Positions 12,480 to 34,179 of a stretch of DNA of 34,687 nucleotides are shown here, piece by piece (the first letter of the stretch is position 1; the number at the start of each line of letters is the position of its first letter). Source of the DNA: Methanothrix sp. (lineage in GTDB: Archaea > Halobacteriota > Methanosarcinia > Methanotrichales > Methanotrichaceae); NCBI GenBank assembly GCA_026394555.1, contig JAPKXZ010000052.1:165376-200062 (forward strand), written 5' to 3'. The notes under the pieces are model-generated. The model saw only the letters and a list, made by a program, of their open reading frames with translations, ran no database searches and was not told the origin of the DNA. The translations under genes and the position numbers were made by a program.

Positions 12480-12767
12480 CTATTGAAAACAAGAAGCGGC
12501 TATGCCATCTAGGGTGGCAATAATGGTCTCATCTCCTGGCCTCCGATGAAAGTATCGCACAGCGGGCTCTTCCGCGTTCCCTAAGGCCACACAAGCCATC
12601 GCTATGTCGGCTTCCATAGTATCCCTAGTTGGCCAGCCGTCGCGATCATCACAGTCGCAAGCGTCGTGCTCCTGGGTGCATCCGAGAAGATCGTCCCAAC
12701 CAAGCCCCTGGTGTTCCCGCTTTGCTGCCTTGAGTTCAGCGATGGCCTTCGTGTATGCCGCCCACAT
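12480..12767 (-). CDS. Hypothetical Cys-containing small protein, divergent from the aldo/keto reductase
   Basis: The 95-residue product starts MWAAYTKAIAELKAAKREHQ, includes TQEHDACDCDDRDG (residues 31-44) and ends CFQ. Four Cys and several Asp/His residues in the middle (GCTQEHDACDCDD) could bind a metal; I recognise no family. A longer open frame continues upstream through the reductase gene, but a TATA box at 12796-12805 would start the transcript about 8 bases before ATG 12767, so I take that start. The Trp/Cys-rich, balanced composition argues for a real protein and not a shadow frame. Function unknown. Confidence 0.45.
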   Translation of the reverse strand: MWAAYTKAIAELKAAKREHQGLGWDDLLGCTQEHDACDCDDRDGWPTRDTMEADIAMACVALGNAEEPAVRYFHRRPGDETIIATLDGIAASCFQ

Positions 12768-12795
12768 TTTGCCCACAGGATCACGAAGCTCTACC

Positions 12796-12805
12796 TTTTT
12801 TATAC
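12796..12805. promoter_or_regulatory. Shared, apparently bidirectional TATA box
   Basis: TTTTTTATAC reads as a TATA element in both directions (GTATAAAAAA on the minus strand). It lies 35 bases before the reductase ATG at 12840 and 29 bases before the minus-strand ATG at 12767, suitable distances for both genes, so one TBP site may serve both. Confidence 0.45.
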
Positions 12806-12839
12806 TCTGTCGCGCATTTATCCCATTGGGAAGATTATT

Positions 12840-13688
12840 ATGACGATTACTACGAGGCTCTTCGGAAAGTCGGGCCCGCCCGTCACTCAGGTGGGCCTGG
12901 GCGGGGAGGGCGTGCTGCGCACCCACGGGCGCGAGCAAGAGGCTAAGGCCGTCATTGAGCAGGCTGCCGCGCAGGGCATAACCTACTTCGACTCGGCCCA
13001 GGCTTATGCAGGCAGCCAGGGCTACTATGGCAATTTTTGGCGCAGCCACCAGGAGCTGCGCTCCGGCATCTTTCAGACCAGCAAGTCCGCTGCCCGCGAC
13101 TACCTGGGCGCGAAGGCCGACCTGGCCGAGTCCCTGAAGATAATGGGCCTGGATCGCCTGGACCTGTGGCAGATTCATGATCTACGGACTCGCCAGGATA
13201 TCGAGGAGATGGAGGGGCCGCTCGGTGCCCTGCGGGCATTCGTGGAAGCCAAAGACGCAGGACTGGTGCGCTACCTGGGCGTCACCGGTCATCATGCCCC
13301 CAGAATCCTGGAGCACGCTGTGAAAAACTGGCCGGTGGATGCTGTGCTCATGCCCGTCAACCCAGCGGAAGCCGTCCTGGGCGGATTTCTGGATCTAGTC
13401 ATGGCCGCTGCCCTGGATCGTGGCCACGCCGTTATCGGCATGAAGGTGCTGGGCGGTTCACACTACATCTCCCCAGAGGACGGTGTGACGGTGGAGCTGC
13501 TGCTGCGCTTTGCCCTTTCCCGAGATGTCAGCACGATCGTTGTGGGCTGTTCCAGCCCCGGAGAGGTGCAGGCGCTGGCCCGCGTAGGCAGCGAGTTTCA
13601 GCCCCTGGCAGCAGAGGAGGAGAAGAAGCTGCTGGTGCTGTTCCGGCCCCATGCCCGGAGGAAGGCGTACTACCGGGGAGCGATTTAG
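12840..13688 (+). CDS. Aldo/keto reductase (intact copy)
   Basis: The 282-residue protein is an aldo/keto reductase TIM barrel with the full catalytic tetrad: Asp51 and Tyr56 in FDSAQAY, Lys82 in TSKSAARD and His113 in WQIHDLR. The C-terminal VVGCSSPGEVQALARVGSEF segment is the NADP(H)-binding strand and helix. Family members reduce aldehydes and ketones; substrate unknown. A longer frame runs 58 codons upstream but starts inside the divergent gene, so ATG 12840, 35 bases from a TATA box, is preferred. A decayed duplicate lies 1.56 kb downstream with the Doc-like gene between them, showing that this locus duplicated. It ends in TAG. Confidence 0.88.
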   Translation: MTITTRLFGKSGPPVTQVGLGGEGVLRTHGREQEAKAVIEQAAAQGITYFDSAQAYAGSQGYYGNFWRSHQELRSGIFQTSKSAARDYLGAKADLAESLKIMGLDRLDLWQIHDLRTRQDIEEMEGPLGALRAFVEAKDAGLVRYLGVTGHHAPRILEHAVKNWPVDAVLMPVNPAEAVLGGFLDLVMAAALDRGHAVIGMKVLGGSHYISPEDGVTVELLLRFALSRDVSTIVVGCSSPGEVQALARVGSEFQPLAAEEEKKLLVLFRPHARRKAYYRGAI

Positions 13689-13816: not shown

Positions 13817-14194
13817 ATGGAAGAACTCACAGAAAAGAAGATTATACAAATCCATGATTTCCTCATCGAGGAGACGGGCGGAAATTCGGGCATTCGCGAT
13901 TCGGCCACATTGTACTTTTTAGTTGAAGCCATCAATCACGAGACGGACCTGTTCAGAAAGGCAGCTCAAGCGTTTTTCTTGGCAGAACGTCATCCTTTTT
14001 GGGATGGTCAGAAAAGGACTGCTTTCGTGTTGGCCGATTATATTTTACGAGAAAGGGGCTATTGCTTTGATAAGAAAGACAAAGCAGAGATAATGCGTGT
14101 TATGGTGAGAATAGCTCAATACACATGCCCCGAGGGAGAAGAGATAGACACAATAGCGAAATGGTTAAAAAAGACTGTTGTGAGGCTGGAGTAA
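13817..14194 (+). CDS. Doc/Fic-family toxin-like protein
   Basis: At 125 residues this matches the length of Doc, the short Fic-fold kinase toxin that phosphorylates EF-Tu. It has the Doc N-terminal helix (IIQIHDFLIEETGGNSGIRD), the segment RKAAQAFFLAERHP and the Fic loop HPFWDGQKRTA starting at His59. The canonical Asn before Lys-Arg (as in DGNKRTA) is Gln here, which may alter activity. Doc genes normally follow a Phd-type antitoxin gene; no such gene precedes it (only about 130 bases of A+T-rich DNA with an imperfect CTTCCT...AGGAAG inverted repeat). The only neighbour that could act as antitoxin is the small convergent gene abutting its stop, which is speculative. It lies between the two reductase copies, as expected for an inserted cassette. 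Confidence 0.8.
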   Translation: MEELTEKKIIQIHDFLIEETGGNSGIRDSATLYFLVEAINHETDLFRKAAQAFFLAERHPFWDGQKRTAFVLADYILRERGYCFDKKDKAEIMRVMVRIAQYTCPEGEEIDTIAKWLKKTVVRLE

Positions 14195-14392: not shown

Positions 14393-14533
14393 CTAGCACT
14401 TTCAGCCGAGTTTGGAATTGCTTGGGGAACAATTGTTTCCTGGGTATATATAGATATTTGCGGCAACAGTGGGGCCAATTCATCCTCACCCTGAAGGGCT
14501 CTGGTCTTCTTGGCCCCTACACCCCCAAAGATA

Positions 14534-15248
14534 GGCATAACCTACTTCGACTCGGCCTAGGCCTAGGCAGGCAGCCAGGGTTATTATGGCAATTTTTGGC
14601 GCAGCCACCAGGAGCTTTGCCCCGGTATCTTTCAGACCAGCAAGTCCGCCGCCTGCGACTATCAGGGCGCCAGGGCCGATCTGGCAGAGTCCCTGGAGAT
14701 CATGGGCCTGAAGAGCCTGGACCTGTGGCAGATTCATGATCTACGGACTCGCCAGGATATCGAGGAGATGGAGGGTTCGGGCGGAGCCCTGCGGGCATTC
14801 ATGGAAGCCAAAGACGCAGGACTGGTGCGCTACCTGGGCGTCACCGGCCACCATGCTCCTAGAATCCTGGAGCATGCTGTGAAAAGCTGGCCGGTGGACA
14901 GCGTTCTTATGCCCATTAATCCCGCAGAAGCCGTCCTGGGCGGATTTCTGGATCGAGTCATGGCCGTTGCAAAGGATCGAGGTCTCGCCATCATCGGCAT
15001 GAAGGTGCTGGGCGGTTCACACTACATTTCCCCAGAGGACGGGGTGACGGCAGAGCTGCTGCTGCGCTTTGCCCTTTCCCAAGAGATCAGCACGGCAATT
15101 GTGGGCTGCAGGAGCGCCGGGGAGGTGCAGGCGCTGGCCCAGGTGGGCAGAGAGTTCCACCCCCTGGCAGCAGTAGGAGGAGAAAAAGCTGCTGGAGCTG
15201 TTCCGGCCCCAGGCCAGGAGACTGGCGTACTACCGGGGAGCGATTTAG
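14534..15248 (+). pseudogene. Aldo/keto reductase, decayed second copy
   Basis: This is a duplicate of the reductase gene at 12840, aligning from copy-1 base 12975 to its end and about 20 bases beyond, with the first 45 codons missing. In frame it carries two TAG codons at 14558-14560 and 14564-14566, replacing Gln54 and the catalytic Tyr56, then reads well from Ile-Met-Gly-Leu through KDAGLVRYLGVTGHHAP and MKVLGGSHYISPEDGV. A single-base insertion near 15176 (GCAGTAGG versus GCAGAGG) shifts the last 20 codons. Three independent lesions plus 5' loss make it non-functional. Many differences are silent, so the duplication is not recent. Confidence 0.9.
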
Positions 15249-15269
15249 CAGGAAAGGCGCTTGGGCAAG

Positions 15270-15284
15270 CCTCGCGTAGCGAGG
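15270..15284. repeat. Small perfect hairpin after the reductase pseudogene
   Basis: CCTCGC and GCGAGG flank the loop GTA at 15270-15284. It lies where similarity between the two reductase copies ends (about 15265), so it may mark the duplication boundary or be a 3' structure. No other function is evident. Confidence 0.35.
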
Positions 15285-15430
15285 TAATCATGTACGAAAA
15301 TGCGGCGGGCCGGGGGTGTGTCGCGAACCCTGGCTTCTCTCGCCCTGGTATTTCCTGCAGCGGCCAATGATATGTGATCGACTTGAATAATAAACGGCCA
15401 TCTACCTAAAAAATAGTCCAGCGGACTCAC

Positions 15431-15877
15431 TCAAGTCCCGCAGCTCTCCCCCTCTTCGCCCTCGTGACTCGCCTCCTTGACTTCCTCCGGCTTGATCTTG
15501 CCAATCTTCACCCAGTAGTTCTTGATGGCGGCATGCAGTGCGTCAGCCCCGAGGTTAGAGCAGTGCATCTTCTGGGGCGGCAGCCCCCCCAATTCGTCCG
15601 CCACATCCTTTCTGGTGATCAACATGGCCTCGTCCAGAGTCTTTCCTTTGGCCATCTCTGTGACCATGCTGGAGACGGCTATGGCTGAACCGCAGCCGAA
15701 GGTCCTGAATTTGATGTCGTCTATTTTGTCTTCCTTGACGGTGATGAATATCTCCATGAGATCGCCACAGACGGGATTGCCCACCTGTCCGTATCCGTCC
15801 GGGTTCTCGATCACCCCTACATTTTTGGGGTTCATGAAGTGTTCCATAACTTTCTTGGAGTAACCAATCTGTGCCAT
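15431..15877 (-). CDS. iscU: IscU/NifU-like Fe-S cluster scaffold protein
   Basis: The 148-residue protein has the complete scaffold set: Cys37 and Asp39 in NPVCGDLM, Cys62 in TFGCGSAIA and His105-Cys106 in KMHCSNL. These bind the nascent [2Fe-2S] cluster in the cytoplasm before transfer to apo-proteins. The C-terminus (EASHEGEEGESCGT) is an acidic tail with one extra Cys. AGGTGA just before the ATG is the ribosome binding site, and the gene starts 15 bases after the iscS-like stop, making it the last gene of the tusA-dsrE-iscS-iscU operon. It contains only the U-type domain, without the C-terminal Nfu domain of full NifU. Confidence 0.95.
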   Translation of the reverse strand: MAQIGYSKKVMEHFMNPKNVGVIENPDGYGQVGNPVCGDLMEIFITVKEDKIDDIKFRTFGCGSAIAVSSMVTEMAKGKTLDEAMLITRKDVADELGGLPPQKMHCSNLGADALHAAIKNYWVKIGKIKPEEVKEASHEGEEGESCGT

Positions 15878-15892
15878 TTTCTTTTCACCTGT

Positions 15893-17047
15893 TTATAGCG
15901 GAGAGAGTGCCCTCAGCCTTTCTACTGTCTTTTTCGTTGCATTAACGATTGCAGTTATCTGGTCGGGGTTGTTCTGCCTGCCAATCGTCATGATCATGGA
16001 GCCATGCGCCTGCTCATGTTTTAAGCCTATGGCCAAAAGCACATGGGAGGCCTCCAAAGTACGTGAGGAGCAGGCCGAGCCCGTGGATACCTGAATGTTG
16101 AACATGGCATCCATGGTGAGGAGAATGCTCTCCCCCTCAATGCGGCTGAAGCGGAAGCTGGCATGATGCGGGAGCCGCTTCGTAGGATGACCGGTGAGGT
16201 ATGACTCCTCGATCTTGAGGATCTCCTTGATCAGACCATCCCGGATGGCCTGCAAACGCTGGCTTTCTTCTGCCTTCTCCAGCTTCGCCAGCCTGGCCGC
16301 CTCGCCAAATCCCGCCAGAGCATAGAGATTCTCGGTGCCGGGCCGCTGGCCCTTTTCCTGACCGCCGCCGAAAAGCACCGGTTGAATGCGAACGCCTGGG
16401 CGCACGTACAGCGCGCCCGCCCCCTGGGGACCGTAAAGATCGTTCGAGGAAAGGGTGAGCAGATCGATGCCGTCCTTTTGCACATCGATAGGGATCTTGC
16501 CCGCGGCGGCAGCGCCGTCCACGTGCAGAAACTGCCCTTTCTCGTGCACAAGATCGCTCACCTCTTTTATGGGCTGAATGGTTCCAATCTCGCTGTTGGC
16601 GTACATCACCGATGTGAGTACGGTCTCCTTAGAAAGCAGTCCCTCCAGGGCCGCCAGATCGATAATGCCCATGCTGTCCACCGGAACCAGGGTAAGGTCA
16701 AAGCCGCCCTTCTTAAGATCTTTCATGGGATTAAGCACGGAGATGTGCTCTATTTGGCTGGCCAGCAGCTTCTTGCCCTTTGCTGCGTTCCTCTGCACCA
16801 CTCCCCGAATGGTCAGGTTGTTGGCCTCGGTGACACCTGCTGTAAAGACGATGCTCTCCGGGCTTTCTGCATTTATCAGCTCCGCCACTTTTGCCCGCGC
16901 CTCCTCCTGAGCCGCCTTTGCCGCCAGGCCCCGAGAATGCAGAGCCGAAGGATTGCCAAAATCATTGCTTAGATAGCGCTCTGCAAATTCGGCAACCCTG
17001 GGGTCTACGGGAGACGCAGACTGGTAGTCTAAATAAATTTTGCACAT
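15893..17047 (-). CDS. iscS: IscS/NifS-like cysteine desulfurase homologue lacking the PLP lysine
   Basis: The 384-residue protein aligns throughout with group I cysteine desulfurases: N-terminal YLDYQSASPVDPRV, GVTEANNLTIRG, His101 in IEHISVL, the GGGQEKGQRPGTEN box, and the loop with active-site Cys326 in STGSACSSR. The PLP-binding motif is changed. Where active enzymes have Ser-x-His-Lys-x-x-Gly-Pro, this has SSNDLYGPQG, with Asn202-Asp203 in place of His-Lys; the Gln of the usual DAAQ motif is also lost (DGAAAAGK). The IscS of Archaeoglobus fulgidus likewise has Asp for Lys, reportedly lacks desulfurase activity, and supplies a cysteine ligand to the IscU cluster. By analogy this protein is probably an assembly partner and not a sulfur donor. 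GGGGAT before the ATG is the likely ribosome binding site. Confidence 0.92.
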   Translation of the reverse strand: MCKIYLDYQSASPVDPRVAEFAERYLSNDFGNPSALHSRGLAAKAAQEEARAKVAELINAESPESIVFTAGVTEANNLTIRGVVQRNAAKGKKLLASQIEHISVLNPMKDLKKGGFDLTLVPVDSMGIIDLAALEGLLSKETVLTSVMYANSEIGTIQPIKEVSDLVHEKGQFLHVDGAAAAGKIPIDVQKDGIDLLTLSSNDLYGPQGAGALYVRPGVRIQPVLFGGGQEKGQRPGTENLYALAGFGEAARLAKLEKAEESQRLQAIRDGLIKEILKIEESYLTGHPTKRLPHHASFRFSRIEGESILLTMDAMFNIQVSTGSACSSRTLEASHVLLAIGLKHEQAHGSMIMTIGRQNNPDQITAIVNATKKTVERLRALSPL

Positions 17048-17075: not shown

Positions 17076-17101
17076 TCTAGAAGCTGATTCTAGAAGCTGA
17101 T
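17076..17101. repeat. 13-bp tandem duplication at the end of the dsrE-like gene
   Basis: TCTAGAAGCTGAT occurs twice in direct succession (17076-17088 and 17089-17101), duplicating the last codons and stop of the DsrE-like gene. The first stop reached by the ribosome preserves the protein, so the duplication is harmless. Confidence 0.85.
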
Positions 17102-17449
17102 GGTCGAGTCTGCATCCAGCGCCAGGTCATTTAATGTTCCTGCTCCGGCAATTTTTGCCTCGGGAATGAAGTCGCCCCGCGCCATGCCAAGGAGTTGTGT
17201 GCTCTGCTCGCAGATGTACATCTTCACACCGGAGGCGAGGGCCTGATCGATAACATCTTTGAGAGAAGGAAAGCTTCCTATCTTGATCTTCTCCGCCTCG
17301 CCTTTCTTCATGGCGGTTATGCCCTTGATCATAAAGAAGATGGAGGCTTCCACATCCATCGCACAAGCAGTCATGCCCAGGATAAAGGGCGCGTAAAGTC
17401 TCTCCGGCGTATCCAGGCCGCTAGTCTGAACGTATAGGATCTTGCTCAT
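17090..17449 (-). CDS. DsrE-family sulfur-carrier-like protein
   Basis: The 119-residue protein fits the DsrE/DsrF-like fold: MSKILYVQTSGLDTPERLYA at the N-terminus, a central helix with FFMIKGITAMKKG, and Cys80 in KMYICEQSTQLLGM at the position of the conserved DsrE cysteine that carries persulfide. In sulfur metabolism such proteins pass sulfur to or from TusA. GGTGGTGAT precedes the ATG as a ribosome binding site. It lies 36 bases downstream of the TusA-like gene and 42 bases upstream of the iscS-like gene, all on the minus strand, so it probably delivers or channels sulfur for Fe-S assembly. The direction of transfer is inference. Confidence 0.85.
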   Translation of the reverse strand: MSKILYVQTSGLDTPERLYAPFILGMTACAMDVEASIFFMIKGITAMKKGEAEKIKIGSFPSLKDVIDQALASGVKMYICEQSTQLLGMARGDFIPEAKIAGAGTLNDLALDADSTISF

Positions 17450-17485: not shown

Positions 17486-17740
17486 TTACTTCTTCCTTCT
17501 TATCCAGAAGGTGATGATATTTCCGGACTTCTCCAGCCGGAGGACCTCATGGCCTGCTCGCTTGGCCCAGCGGGAGATGTCTTCCTCGGCGGCAGGATCG
17601 TCCGCTTCTACTTTCAAGGTCTGCCCTACCTCTATGTTCTCAATCTCTTCCTTGGTCTTCGCGATGGGCATGGGGCAAAAAAGGCCCACACAGTCCAGCT
17701 CGGCATCATGAGCTTTAGCTAAATTCTGATCCGTTCTCAA
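17486..17740 (-). CDS. TusA/SirA-like sulfur carrier protein
   Basis: The protein (84 residues from a TTG start) has the TusA/SirA fold signature: LDCVGLFCPMPIAKTKEEI, in which Cys22 of the CPMP motif is the persulfide carrier, followed by VGQTLKVEADDPAAEEDISR. TusA proteins shuttle sulfane sulfur between enzymes in the cytoplasm. No ATG exists in frame; TTG 17740 lies only two bases after AGGAGG, closer than usual, so the start is uncertain. It is the first gene of the four-gene operon that ends in IscU, and no other gene precedes it on this strand. Confidence 0.87.
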   Translation of the reverse strand: MRTDQNLAKAHDAELDCVGLFCPMPIAKTKEEIENIEVGQTLKVEADDPAAEEDISRWAKRAGHEVLRLEKSGNIITFWIRRKK

Positions 17741-17951
17741 AACCTCCTCATCTTAAAATGGATTCATTCCGTTCGCCTGATGCATATTGTTGGGTTCTAT
17801 TCTATAAGTATCTTCTTAGAGCATTTAGAAAAACTGGATCACTAACCGAAAAATTTATACTTGATTACCAATATTATATTAGTAGCGAAAGACTTCAAAA
17901 TTTAGAAAGTTATTATCATTCGATGTACAGATTGGGATTTAGGTGAACTAC

Positions 17952-19412
17952 ATGTCTGAATTGTATAGAAAAATGATAAATGAAGCCCTTATGGCCCAGC
18001 ATGCCGATGTAGAGACTGTAAAGAGAAAAAGAGGACAAAGCTTCACCGTTGAGGACACCAGAGCCTATCTGGATGTCGTCAACAAGATGAAGGCCCTCGA
18101 GAATCAGTCCAAATCAGTTTTTAAGCTGCATGTGGACTCCGTAAATGCTCATTTCAACATCCTTTCTTCACTCACCAAGACCATCCGGCCGGAGGACGAT
18201 CCCTTCGTAGAACACTACCAGACACCGGCCATCCTGGAGATCATCTGCGAGGAGGATGAAAAGTTCAAAAAGAGCCTGGATGCTTTCATAGGCGCAGTGG
18301 GAAGGGCAGAAGCCCTGATCGGCCTGGAAGCGGCCAGGAGGTATGGCGGCTTTTATGGCCCCACCTGCGTGGTGGACTTCGCCCTCATTCCGGGCAGCAC
18401 CAGCAACGTGGTCAACCGAATCTTGAAGACGATCGATATTCCCGATGCCCACAAACAGGCCATCCTGGCCGCCAAATCATGGGGCATGAACACCTCCTAC
18501 GGCATTGGCGAGGTCTTTGCAAACCAGGTGGAAAAGGGCGCCACCCTGGCACAGGCCGTAAAAAGGGAGATCGATGAAGTCAAATACATCTACGAAAGCC
18601 CCATCGAAGCGCAGGGCAAGCTGATGGACGCATTCGGCCACACATCCTTCGATGTACGCAAATACATGTCCCAGTACAAGAAGCGGATGACTGCGACGGT
18701 TAAAGAGGCCATGAACGATGGCGTTCACTACGGAAATATTCTGACCGTTCCCGCCTACTGCGTGGGAGACATCTCTCACCACATTGCTCAATCCACATTC
18801 AATATGTGCAAGGACGATGTGATCATGGCTGTGATCGAGGCGACCACAGAAGTCATGGACTCGACCCTCAACAAAGCCGCTGACAAGATCAAAAATGAGT
18901 ATCAGCTCTTGAGCCTGGCCACGGGCTCCTCGGCGGCAGCAGTAGAATACATTCTGGAGCTGGATGGATTTAATGCCATCATGGTCGTGGATCTACTCAC
19001 CAAGAGATTCCACAATTACGTCCAGCTCTATCCAACCCGAGGCGCGGCGGCGGAGCTACACAACTGCGACTTCATGGACATGATCTACCGCGGCTGGAAG
19101 CTCCTCGACCGGTCCATGAGACAGAGAAACGGCTTGGGCGGCAGGCTGGTTCCCAAGGTCTCGGGCTTTGACATCGATCTGGAGCCGATTCATAAGAACG
19201 AGGTTCTCATGAATCCGCAGCGCTACGCCTATCCTGCCTGTGCCATAACCGTCCGGTTCTCCGCCCTGATGAGGCTGGCCGACTATCCCTGCCTGCTCAC
19301 CAGCGAGCCGGTAACAGCCACCATGATGACCAATATCATCGCCCTGCATATGCCTGCTCACCAGCGAGCCGGTAACAGCCACCATGATGACCAATATCAT
19401 CGCCCTGCATAA
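17952..19412 (+). CDS. DUF2193 family protein with a C-terminus frameshifted by a 61-bp duplication
   Basis: The protein matches the methanogen DUF2193 family (about 500 residues, function unknown): conserved-looking stretches include GGFYGPTCVVDFALIPGSTS and YSVP-like ILTVPAYCVGDISHHIAQ. A GTG 9 bases upstream is possible; ATG 17952 follows a GGTG. At 19290-19411 a 61-base tandem duplication shifts the frame, so translation ends at TAA 19410-19412 after an aberrant HQRAGNSHHDDQYHRPA tail. Without the duplication the frame continues KETPASPARVCKGCASASLV to TAG at 19510-19512, giving 499 residues. The lost tail holds a CKGC pair and another Cys that may bind metal. It lies upstream of DUF2180 and aquaporin genes. 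It is either a recent mutation or an assembly artefact. Confidence 0.85.
   Translation: MSELYRKMINEALMAQHADVETVKRKRGQSFTVEDTRAYLDVVNKMKALENQSKSVFKLHVDSVNAHFNILSSLTKTIRPEDDPFVEHYQTPAILEIICEEDEKFKKSLDAFIGAVGRAEALIGLEAARRYGGFYGPTCVVDFALIPGSTSNVVNRILKTIDIPDAHKQAILAAKSWGMNTSYGIGEVFANQVEKGATLAQAVKREIDEVKYIYESPIEAQGKLMDAFGHTSFDVRKYMSQYKKRMTATVKEAMNDGVHYGNILTVPAYCVGDISHHIAQSTFNMCKDDVIMAVIEATTEVMDSTLNKAADKIKNEYQLLSLATGSSAAAVEYILELDGFNAIMVVDLLTKRFHNYVQLYPTRGAAAELHNCDFMDMIYRGWKLLDRSMRQRNGLGGRLVPKVSGFDIDLEPIHKNEVLMNPQRYAYPACAITVRFSALMRLADYPCLLTSEPVTATMMTNIIALHMPAHQRAGNSHHDDQYHRPA
19290..19411 (+). repeat. 61-bp perfect tandem duplication inside the DUF2193 gene
   Basis: Bases 19290-19350 and 19351-19411 are identical direct copies beginning TGCCTGCTCACCAGCGAGCC. 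Because 61 is not a multiple of three, the copy shifts the frame of the C-terminal 33 codons. The absence of any difference between the copies indicates a very recent event or an assembly error. Confidence 0.95.
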
Positions 19413-32954: not shown

Positions 32955-34179
32955 TCTTCAATTGTGCCACGACTTTTCAGTCATGGAAATACTACCAGAC
33001 GGAGTTGGTATCTGAGAATGTGCGACTGTGTTTCAATTGAGCCACGACTTTTCAGTCATGGATAGTGAAGCAGCTGTTTGCACAGGGTGGATATGCAGAT
33101 ACGTTTCAATTGAGCCACGACTTTTCAGTCATGGAAATATATGCTTGAACTTCCCGCTGCGGTAACAAACTCAACGGGTTTCAATTGAGCCACGACTTTT
33201 CAGTCATGGATAGGCTGACATTGTAATGTCCTCCACGATTTGGTAATAGCTGTTTCAATTGAGCCACGACTTTTCAGTCATGGATAGAGGAATATTGCTG
33301 CTCTGCCTACTCTGCTGTGTCATGGTGTTTCAATTGAGCCACGACTTTTCAGTCATGGATAGGCAGCCCAGTCCGGCCTGAGGATGTAGGTAATGTCTCT
33401 GGTGTTTCAATTGAGCCACGACTTTTCAGTCATGGATAGAACTATTTTCTAGTAGTGCTGGGTAACGCGATACTCGCGTTTCAATTGAGCCACGACTTTT
33501 CAGTCATGGATAGACTTTATTAAGGAATTTGATCAAGATCTTAACACGACTGTTTCAATTGAGCCACGACTTTTCAGTCATGGATAGATCATTGCGTCAC
33601 TTGCTTTTCTGGCAATAAGATGGTGTTTCAATTGAGCCACGACTTTTCAGTCATGGATAGATTGGGGTTGCTTTCACCCCGCCCGCCGGAGTCAATATAT
33701 GTTTCAATTGAGCCACGACTTTTCAGTCATGGATAGATAGGCGGAGGGCCGACGCAGCATTGTCGTAGAATTCCAGTTTCAATTGAGCCACGACTTTTCA
33801 GTCATGGATAGTCTTCATCTCTTTGCCACAAGAGAGACACTTGAAAATTGTTTCAATTGAGCCACGACTTTTCAGTCATGGATAGGCGGTTTACGACCCC
33901 AGTAATCCCAAAAAAAAACCTGCGTTTCAATTGAGCCACGACTTTTCAGTCATGGATAGTATGTGGCAACGATCTAACAAGAGGGTAGGATTAAGCAGTT
34001 TCAATTGAGCCACGACTTTTCAGTCATGGATAGGCTGATGAATTGACGGATTGGCAGAAGCGACAAATTGGGTTTCAATTGAGCCACGACTTTTCAGTCA
34101 TGGATAGTCTACTTTTTTCGCGCGAGGCTTCCCATGAGACAAGGTTTCAATTGAGCCACGACTTTTCAGTCATGGATAG
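32955..34179 (-). CRISPR. CRISPR array with 17 repeats of 36 bp and 16 spacers
   Basis: The 36-base repeat starts GTTTCAATTGAGCC and ends CAGTCATGGATAG on the plus strand. I find 17 copies, starting at 32955, 33030, 33103, 33178, 33252, 33327, 33404, 33478, 33552, 33625, 33701, 33776, 33850, 33924, 33998, 34072 and 34144, with spacers of 36-41 bases. On the minus strand the repeat ends in ATTGAAAC, the typical 5' tag of archaeal type I/III crRNA, and CCATGACT-GAAA-AGTCGTGG forms an 8-bp stem with one G-U pair and a GAAA loop; on the plus strand that pair would be a C-A mismatch. The array is therefore read leftwards, with the leader on the right. The leftmost repeat (32955) has several changes, and that repeat and the one at 33103 end GGAAAT, as expected at the old end. 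There are no cas genes except the cas2-like remnant at 34428. Confidence 0.97.

Follow-up and report, generated by a model that had tools for sequence, protein, structure and literature searches.

An IscS homologue can support iron-sulfur cluster assembly as a cysteine desulfurase only if it retains the lysine that holds PLP, and the question raised by the present locus is what such a protein does, and where its sulfur would come from, when that lysine is gone while the partner scaffold gene iscU lies next door. The locus was analyzed within a 34,687-nucleotide stretch of DNA from Methanothrix sp. (hereafter, the window), in which the following features of the IscS homologue were located:

15893-17047, minus strand: iscS homologue without the PLP lysine, 384 aa, with Asp203, Asn202 and Ala180; His101 and Cys326 kept
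16439-16441, minus strand: Asp203 (codon GAT), at the position of the Schiff-base lysine; aligns with the lysine of the other IscS of the same genome and with Asp199 of Archaeoglobus fulgidus IscS
16442-16444, minus strand: codon of Asn202, next to Asp203
16508-16510, minus strand: Ala180, at the position of the PLP-contacting glutamine
16070-16072, minus strand: Cys326 in the active-site loop STGSACSS, equivalent to A. fulgidus IscS Cys321
16745-16747, minus strand: codon of His101

An IscS homologue lacking the PLP lysine

The translation of the open reading frame contains DLLTLSSNDLYGPQGAGALY and includes the motif TLSSND203LYGPQG, where S-x-H-K is expected in desulfurases. The SxHK lysine of a catalytic IscS/NifS desulfurase is absent, SSND standing in its place, and alignment with the other IscS of the same genome, which reads SAHKLYGPKG, puts residue 203 of the window protein at the lysine position. 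The protein also reads HVDGAAAAGK where the DA(V/A)Q motif is expected, exchanging Gln180 for alanine. The first-pass annotation had read the locus as an IscS with a Lys-to-Asp change in SSNDLYGPQG, loss of the DAAQ glutamine in DGAAAAGK and retention of His101 and Cys326, and each of these residues is found in the open reading frame as described; the interval it quoted (16425-16445) covers residues 202-208. All NCBIfam desulfurase models score the window protein under their curated cut-offs (408.9 versus 530.75 for NifS, 374.4 versus 643.2 for IscS and 331.6 versus 480 for DndA).

The best PDB matches are the A. fulgidus IscS entries 4eb5, 4eb7 and 4hvk (E 6e-128), with 52% identity to 4eb5, and the same entries rank first in a fold comparison using the predicted monomer, which has a mean pLDDT of 81 and a cysteine loop (residues 311-332) of low confidence. 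Entry 4r5f, titled as a D199K mutant of A. fulgidus IscS, was also matched. A. fulgidus IscS has been reported to have no desulfurase activity (PMC7585200), and in its complex with the D35A variant of IscU the cluster is held by three IscU cysteines and IscS Cys321 (PMC9769115). The window protein resembles it in the SSND motif, in the Asp at the lysine position (Asp199 being native there), in the Ala at the glutamine position, in the retained cysteine loop and in the adjacent iscU. Catalytic loss in an IscS without the lysine is therefore already known from A. fulgidus, and the window gene is a further example. By analogy, the window IscS would share both the desulfurase loss and the cysteine ligation of the IscU cluster, which are published for A. 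fulgidus only.

Other known systems are more distant. With E. coli IscS and the bacterial ISC system the window protein shares the fold, the cysteine loop and the IscU partner, but E. coli IscS is an active PLP desulfurase with SxHK. Methanosarcina acetivorans IscS1 (MA0808) likewise lacks the PLP lysine, has its own IscU and is clustered with further genes (PMC7585200), but differs from the window protein in having Thr at the lysine position, Asp for His101 and His for Gln180, and in falling on a separate branch. The MIS system (MisS-MisU) is, like that of the window, a two-protein IscS-IscU machinery of methanogens; as cited in PMC12442378 (Garcia et al. 2022), it is described as a cysteine desulfurase plus scaffold, unlike the window IscS.

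Conservation and selection

Same-genus and same-family genomes carry Asp (in one case Glu) at position 203 in proteins of 70-94% identity, nearly all of them in the same operon, which rules out an assembly error or a mutation unique to this genome; the possibility left by the first-pass annotation, that close relatives retain lysine and the change is peculiar to this assembly, is thus answered by relatives with Asp or Glu. Comparison of the window iscS with eight same-genus relatives gave dN/dS values of 0.07-0.19, indicating strong purifying selection. Across the D/E clade, Asn202 is found in 78/78 homologues, an acidic residue at 203 in 78/78 (Asp in 73, Glu in 5), Ala180 in 76/78 and Cys326 in 78/78, and Ser103 and His101 are invariant in the 78. 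The low dN/dS together with the conserved Asn202, Ala180 and acidic residue 203 shows that the replacement residues are selected rather than decayed, and a decaying pseudogene was rejected on the same grounds. A recent transfer into this genome was also considered and dropped: a first sample of genomes across the phylum contained no second family member with the gene, and about twenty carriers from the family emerged when the family itself was searched.

Distribution and phylogeny

Genes of the D/E type occur in Halobacteriota, Bathyarchaeota, Hadarchaeota, Lokiarchaeota, Thorarchaeota and Thermoplasmatota. A few bacterial records are labelled Nitrospinota, Deltaproteobacteria, Actinomycetota and Bacillota; since most D/E records come from metagenome bins, individual bacterial assignments may be mistaken. 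In trees computed with the trait columns excluded, all homologues with D/E203 form one clade (support 98/94 in the first tree and 100/93 in the second) that includes both the window IscS and A. fulgidus IscS, and within this clade Glu replaced Asp four separate times. Coloring homologues by residue 203, as had been suggested, thus gives a single D/E group, and this clade, the low dN/dS, and the presence of Cys326 and loss of Gln180 in all 104/104 Lys-less homologues uphold the earlier proposal that PLP chemistry was lost long ago and the cysteine loop retained.

Two further Lys-less groups were recognized. The Thr type, from Methanosarcinaceae-like genomes, reads SAHT, combines Lys-to-Thr with His101-to-Asp and Gln180-to-His, was matched through its STGSACFS loop to M. 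acetivorans IscS1, and forms a branch separate from D/E with one Gln-type row beside it. A Gln/Arg group comprises Planctomycetota, Omnitrophota and Hydrothermarchaeota records. One Hydrothermarchaeota record (L056, 2586-5209) contains two adjacent IscS-like genes with tusA close by, one bearing Arg and the other bearing Lys but with Ile at the glutamine position. The best tree separates the D/E, T+Q and Q/R groups; the AU test does not reject a tree that unites every Lys-less row in one clade (p 0.128), nor one joining D/E with T+Q (p 0.587), and the latter even scores slightly better. Repeated independent loss of the lysine was accordingly dropped as a proven point, the single Lys-less clade not being rejected, and the inactive IscS has possibly arisen more than once, as Asp/Glu, Thr and Gln types.

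The tusA-dsrE-iscS-iscU operon

Beyond the residue changes, the window gene belongs to a conserved operon, a context that the first-pass annotation did not describe, as it did not describe the published A. fulgidus precedent. It is the third of four genes on the minus strand, separated in tusA-to-iscU order by gaps of 36, 42 and 15 bases. Its neighbors are:

17486-17740, minus strand: TusA sulfurtransferase, 84 aa, TTG start; Pfam TusA E 7.5e-26, CPMP motif, Cys22
17090-17449, minus strand: DsrE-family protein, 119 aa; Pfam DsrE E 3.3e-18, conserved Cys80 (17210-17212)
15431-15877, minus strand: IscU scaffold, 148 aa; Pfam NifU_N E 1.6e-48; Cys37, Asp39, Cys62 and Cys106 kept

The TusA protein scores 90.2 bits against a Pfam cut-off of 28.6 and carries the CPxP motif as CPMP, and no second TusA was found in the genome. 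The IscU, with its NifU_N domain, three cysteines and aspartate, is likewise the only NifU_N protein found there, and its gene lies 15 bases downstream of an iscS that keeps the loop cysteine. Among aligned neighbors the TusA nucleophilic cysteine is present in 54/54, the DsrE cysteine in 41/42 and the IscU cysteines in 54/54, 54/54 and 50/54. Elsewhere the genome encodes a Lys-bearing IscS that has no IscU beside it, together with a SufB-type and a SufS-like protein.

In this last respect the Methanothrix genome differs from that of A. fulgidus (G117), which seems to have no counterpart of either the Lys-bearing IscS or the SufS-like protein. Of the two A. fulgidus IscS copies, L128 matches the solved chain at 99.7% identity and L127 at 87%, and both lie beside iscU and dsrE; L127 has the arrangement tusA-dsrE-iscS-iscU with tusA within 4.2 kb, and at L128, the solved-structure copy, tusA genes are found about 6 kb upstream. 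Each of five Archaeoglobus-family genomes has, apart from Lys-less IscS, a single PF00266 protein at E<=1e-20, which is distant and aminotransferase-like; lacking other PF00266 desulfurase candidates, these organisms must obtain their sulfur from elsewhere.

Several features of the window lie outside the operon. In a CRISPR-like array at 33104-33665 the repeat GTTTCAATTGAGCCACGACTTTTCAGTCATGGATAG occurs about eight times, and the spacers between the copies, each of them different, measure about 36-40 bases. A DUF2193 gene (17943-19412) contains in its 3' part a perfect 61-bp tandem duplication (19290-19411) that seems to shift the frame and shorten the C-terminus relative to the Pfam profile. 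Two aldo/keto reductase copies (12666-13688 and 14422-15370), the second split over two open reading frames and apparently broken, flank a Doc/Fic-type toxin gene (13817-14194, TIGR01550 above cut-off).

Linkage of Lys-less IscS to TusA and DsrE

Gene neighborhoods were compared for the IscS matches listed from 197 genomes of the phylum, from same-family genomes and from named relatives, with flanks of about 4-6 kb; counts refer to the 182 IscS loci with full flanks (73 Lys-less, 109 Lys-bearing). Of the Lys-less genes, 67/73 have TusA within 4.2 kb, versus 0/109 of the Lys-bearing ones (Fisher 3e-43, a value that is uncorrected for kinship and only descriptive, since the named relatives were fetched by similarity to the D-type IscS, making the Lys-bearing sample non-random, and since the loci are related by descent). 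DsrE is near 52/73 versus 1/109, and IscU near 73/73 versus 76/109; these proximity counts are not independent, deriving mainly from two to three clades, much of which may reflect the dispersal of a single operon, and a tree-based independent-pairs test had too few pairs to reach significance. The order TusA-DsrE-IscS-IscU accounts for 51/73 Lys-less loci and TusA-IscS-IscU for 14, with IscS-IscU-TusA in two Gln-type loci; six of the 73 have no nearby TusA and 21 no DsrE. The Thr-type (Methanosarcinaceae) and Gln-type genes are also TusA-linked. Within one set of Thr-type loci (L247-L268), the tusA-dsrE-iscS-iscU cluster was observed in 18/22.

A bias in TusA detection was considered and rejected, as an independent scan for the CPxP motif gave 38/39 versus 2/77, the two being false by eye. 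TusA is present in 107/197 genomes, so it is not simply absent where only Lys-bearing IscS occurs. Comparison of the D/E-type loci revealed no other gene family common to most of these neighborhoods. Among the papers searched, which were largely openly accessible ones and not the original A. fulgidus reports, none described a TusA/DsrE link to Lys-less IscS.

Possible sources of sulfur

Lacking the lysine, the window IscS cannot take sulfur from cysteine, so that sulfur most likely comes as a TusA persulfide, directly or via DsrE. We consider the protein to be probably an orthologue of the Lys-less A. fulgidus IscS that is non-catalytic and fed with persulfide by TusA/DsrE, with Cys326 relaying sulfur to, or ligating the cluster on, IscU. 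The protein would no longer be a cysteine desulfurase but would still fold as an IscS, pair with IscU and carry the mobile cysteine loop; by orthology to A. fulgidus, Cys326 would be placed beside the nascent [2Fe-2S] cluster on IscU as ligand, sulfur relay or both. Conservation of the operon suggests that sulfur may pass from TusA-SSH, perhaps through DsrE, to Cys326, to the IscU cysteines or to both. TusA itself could be loaded here by the Lys-bearing IscS, by the SufS-like protein or from inorganic sulfur.

Following the published view of A. fulgidus IscS (PMC7585200, PMC9769115), Cys326 might serve only as a temporary cluster ligand while IscU builds from free sulfide, with TusA and DsrE working in some other process, for instance tRNA thiolation or molybdopterin sulfuration. 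A supply of sulfide could be enough for IscU, which would count against a relay, and clusters of Methanococcus maripaludis use sulfide, not cysteine (PMC10500019, PMC12442378). This account leaves unexplained, however, why TusA accompanies Lys-less but not Lys-bearing IscS across archaeal and bacterial phyla, including the rearranged order in Gln types, and we regard it as rather unlikely, though the most serious competitor to the relay. The direction of transfer can also be questioned: TusA is a sulfur acceptor in E. coli, where sulfur flows from IscS to TusA, opposite to the direction proposed here. The structure of that complex has been solved (3lvj) and is among the PDB matches to the window protein. 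On this model Cys326 would receive a persulfide from another desulfurase or from polysulfide and hand it to TusA/DsrE, making the operon a hub for sulfur distribution; but an IscS without PLP chemistry is no sulfur source and still needs an upstream donor, and neither a Lys-bearing IscS nor a SufS was seen in the Archaeoglobus-family genomes examined, so that we judge it improbable.

It is also conceivable, at a very low probability, that the window IscS binds PLP or PMP non-covalently and runs a different PLP reaction. There are other PLP-fold enzymes that function in the absence of this lysine, and most D/E types retain both His101 and Asp177, the partner of the pyridine nitrogen. Against this, the Thr type is without His101, some D/E types have Asn177, and no member of the D/E clade has Gln180 or His202. 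The persulfide-fed relay is the reading we prefer for the window protein.

Conclusions

Extended beyond this locus, the relay would amount to a desulfurase-independent ISC system in archaea and some bacteria, in which an inactive IscS, possibly arisen repeatedly, docks on IscU, takes persulfide from TusA, often via DsrE, and passes it on, so that cluster sulfur would come by way of TusA instead of from cysteine at IscS; for this broader claim our confidence falls a little short of even, and we offer it tentatively. Published work has so far explained Lys-less IscS as a cluster ligand, with sulfide providing for everything else. The near-exclusive tie between loss of the lysine and a tusA(-dsrE) neighbor provides a concrete and testable sulfur donor for the inactive IscS and its IscU, and to annotate such genes as cysteine desulfurases is to misrepresent how many archaea handle sulfur.
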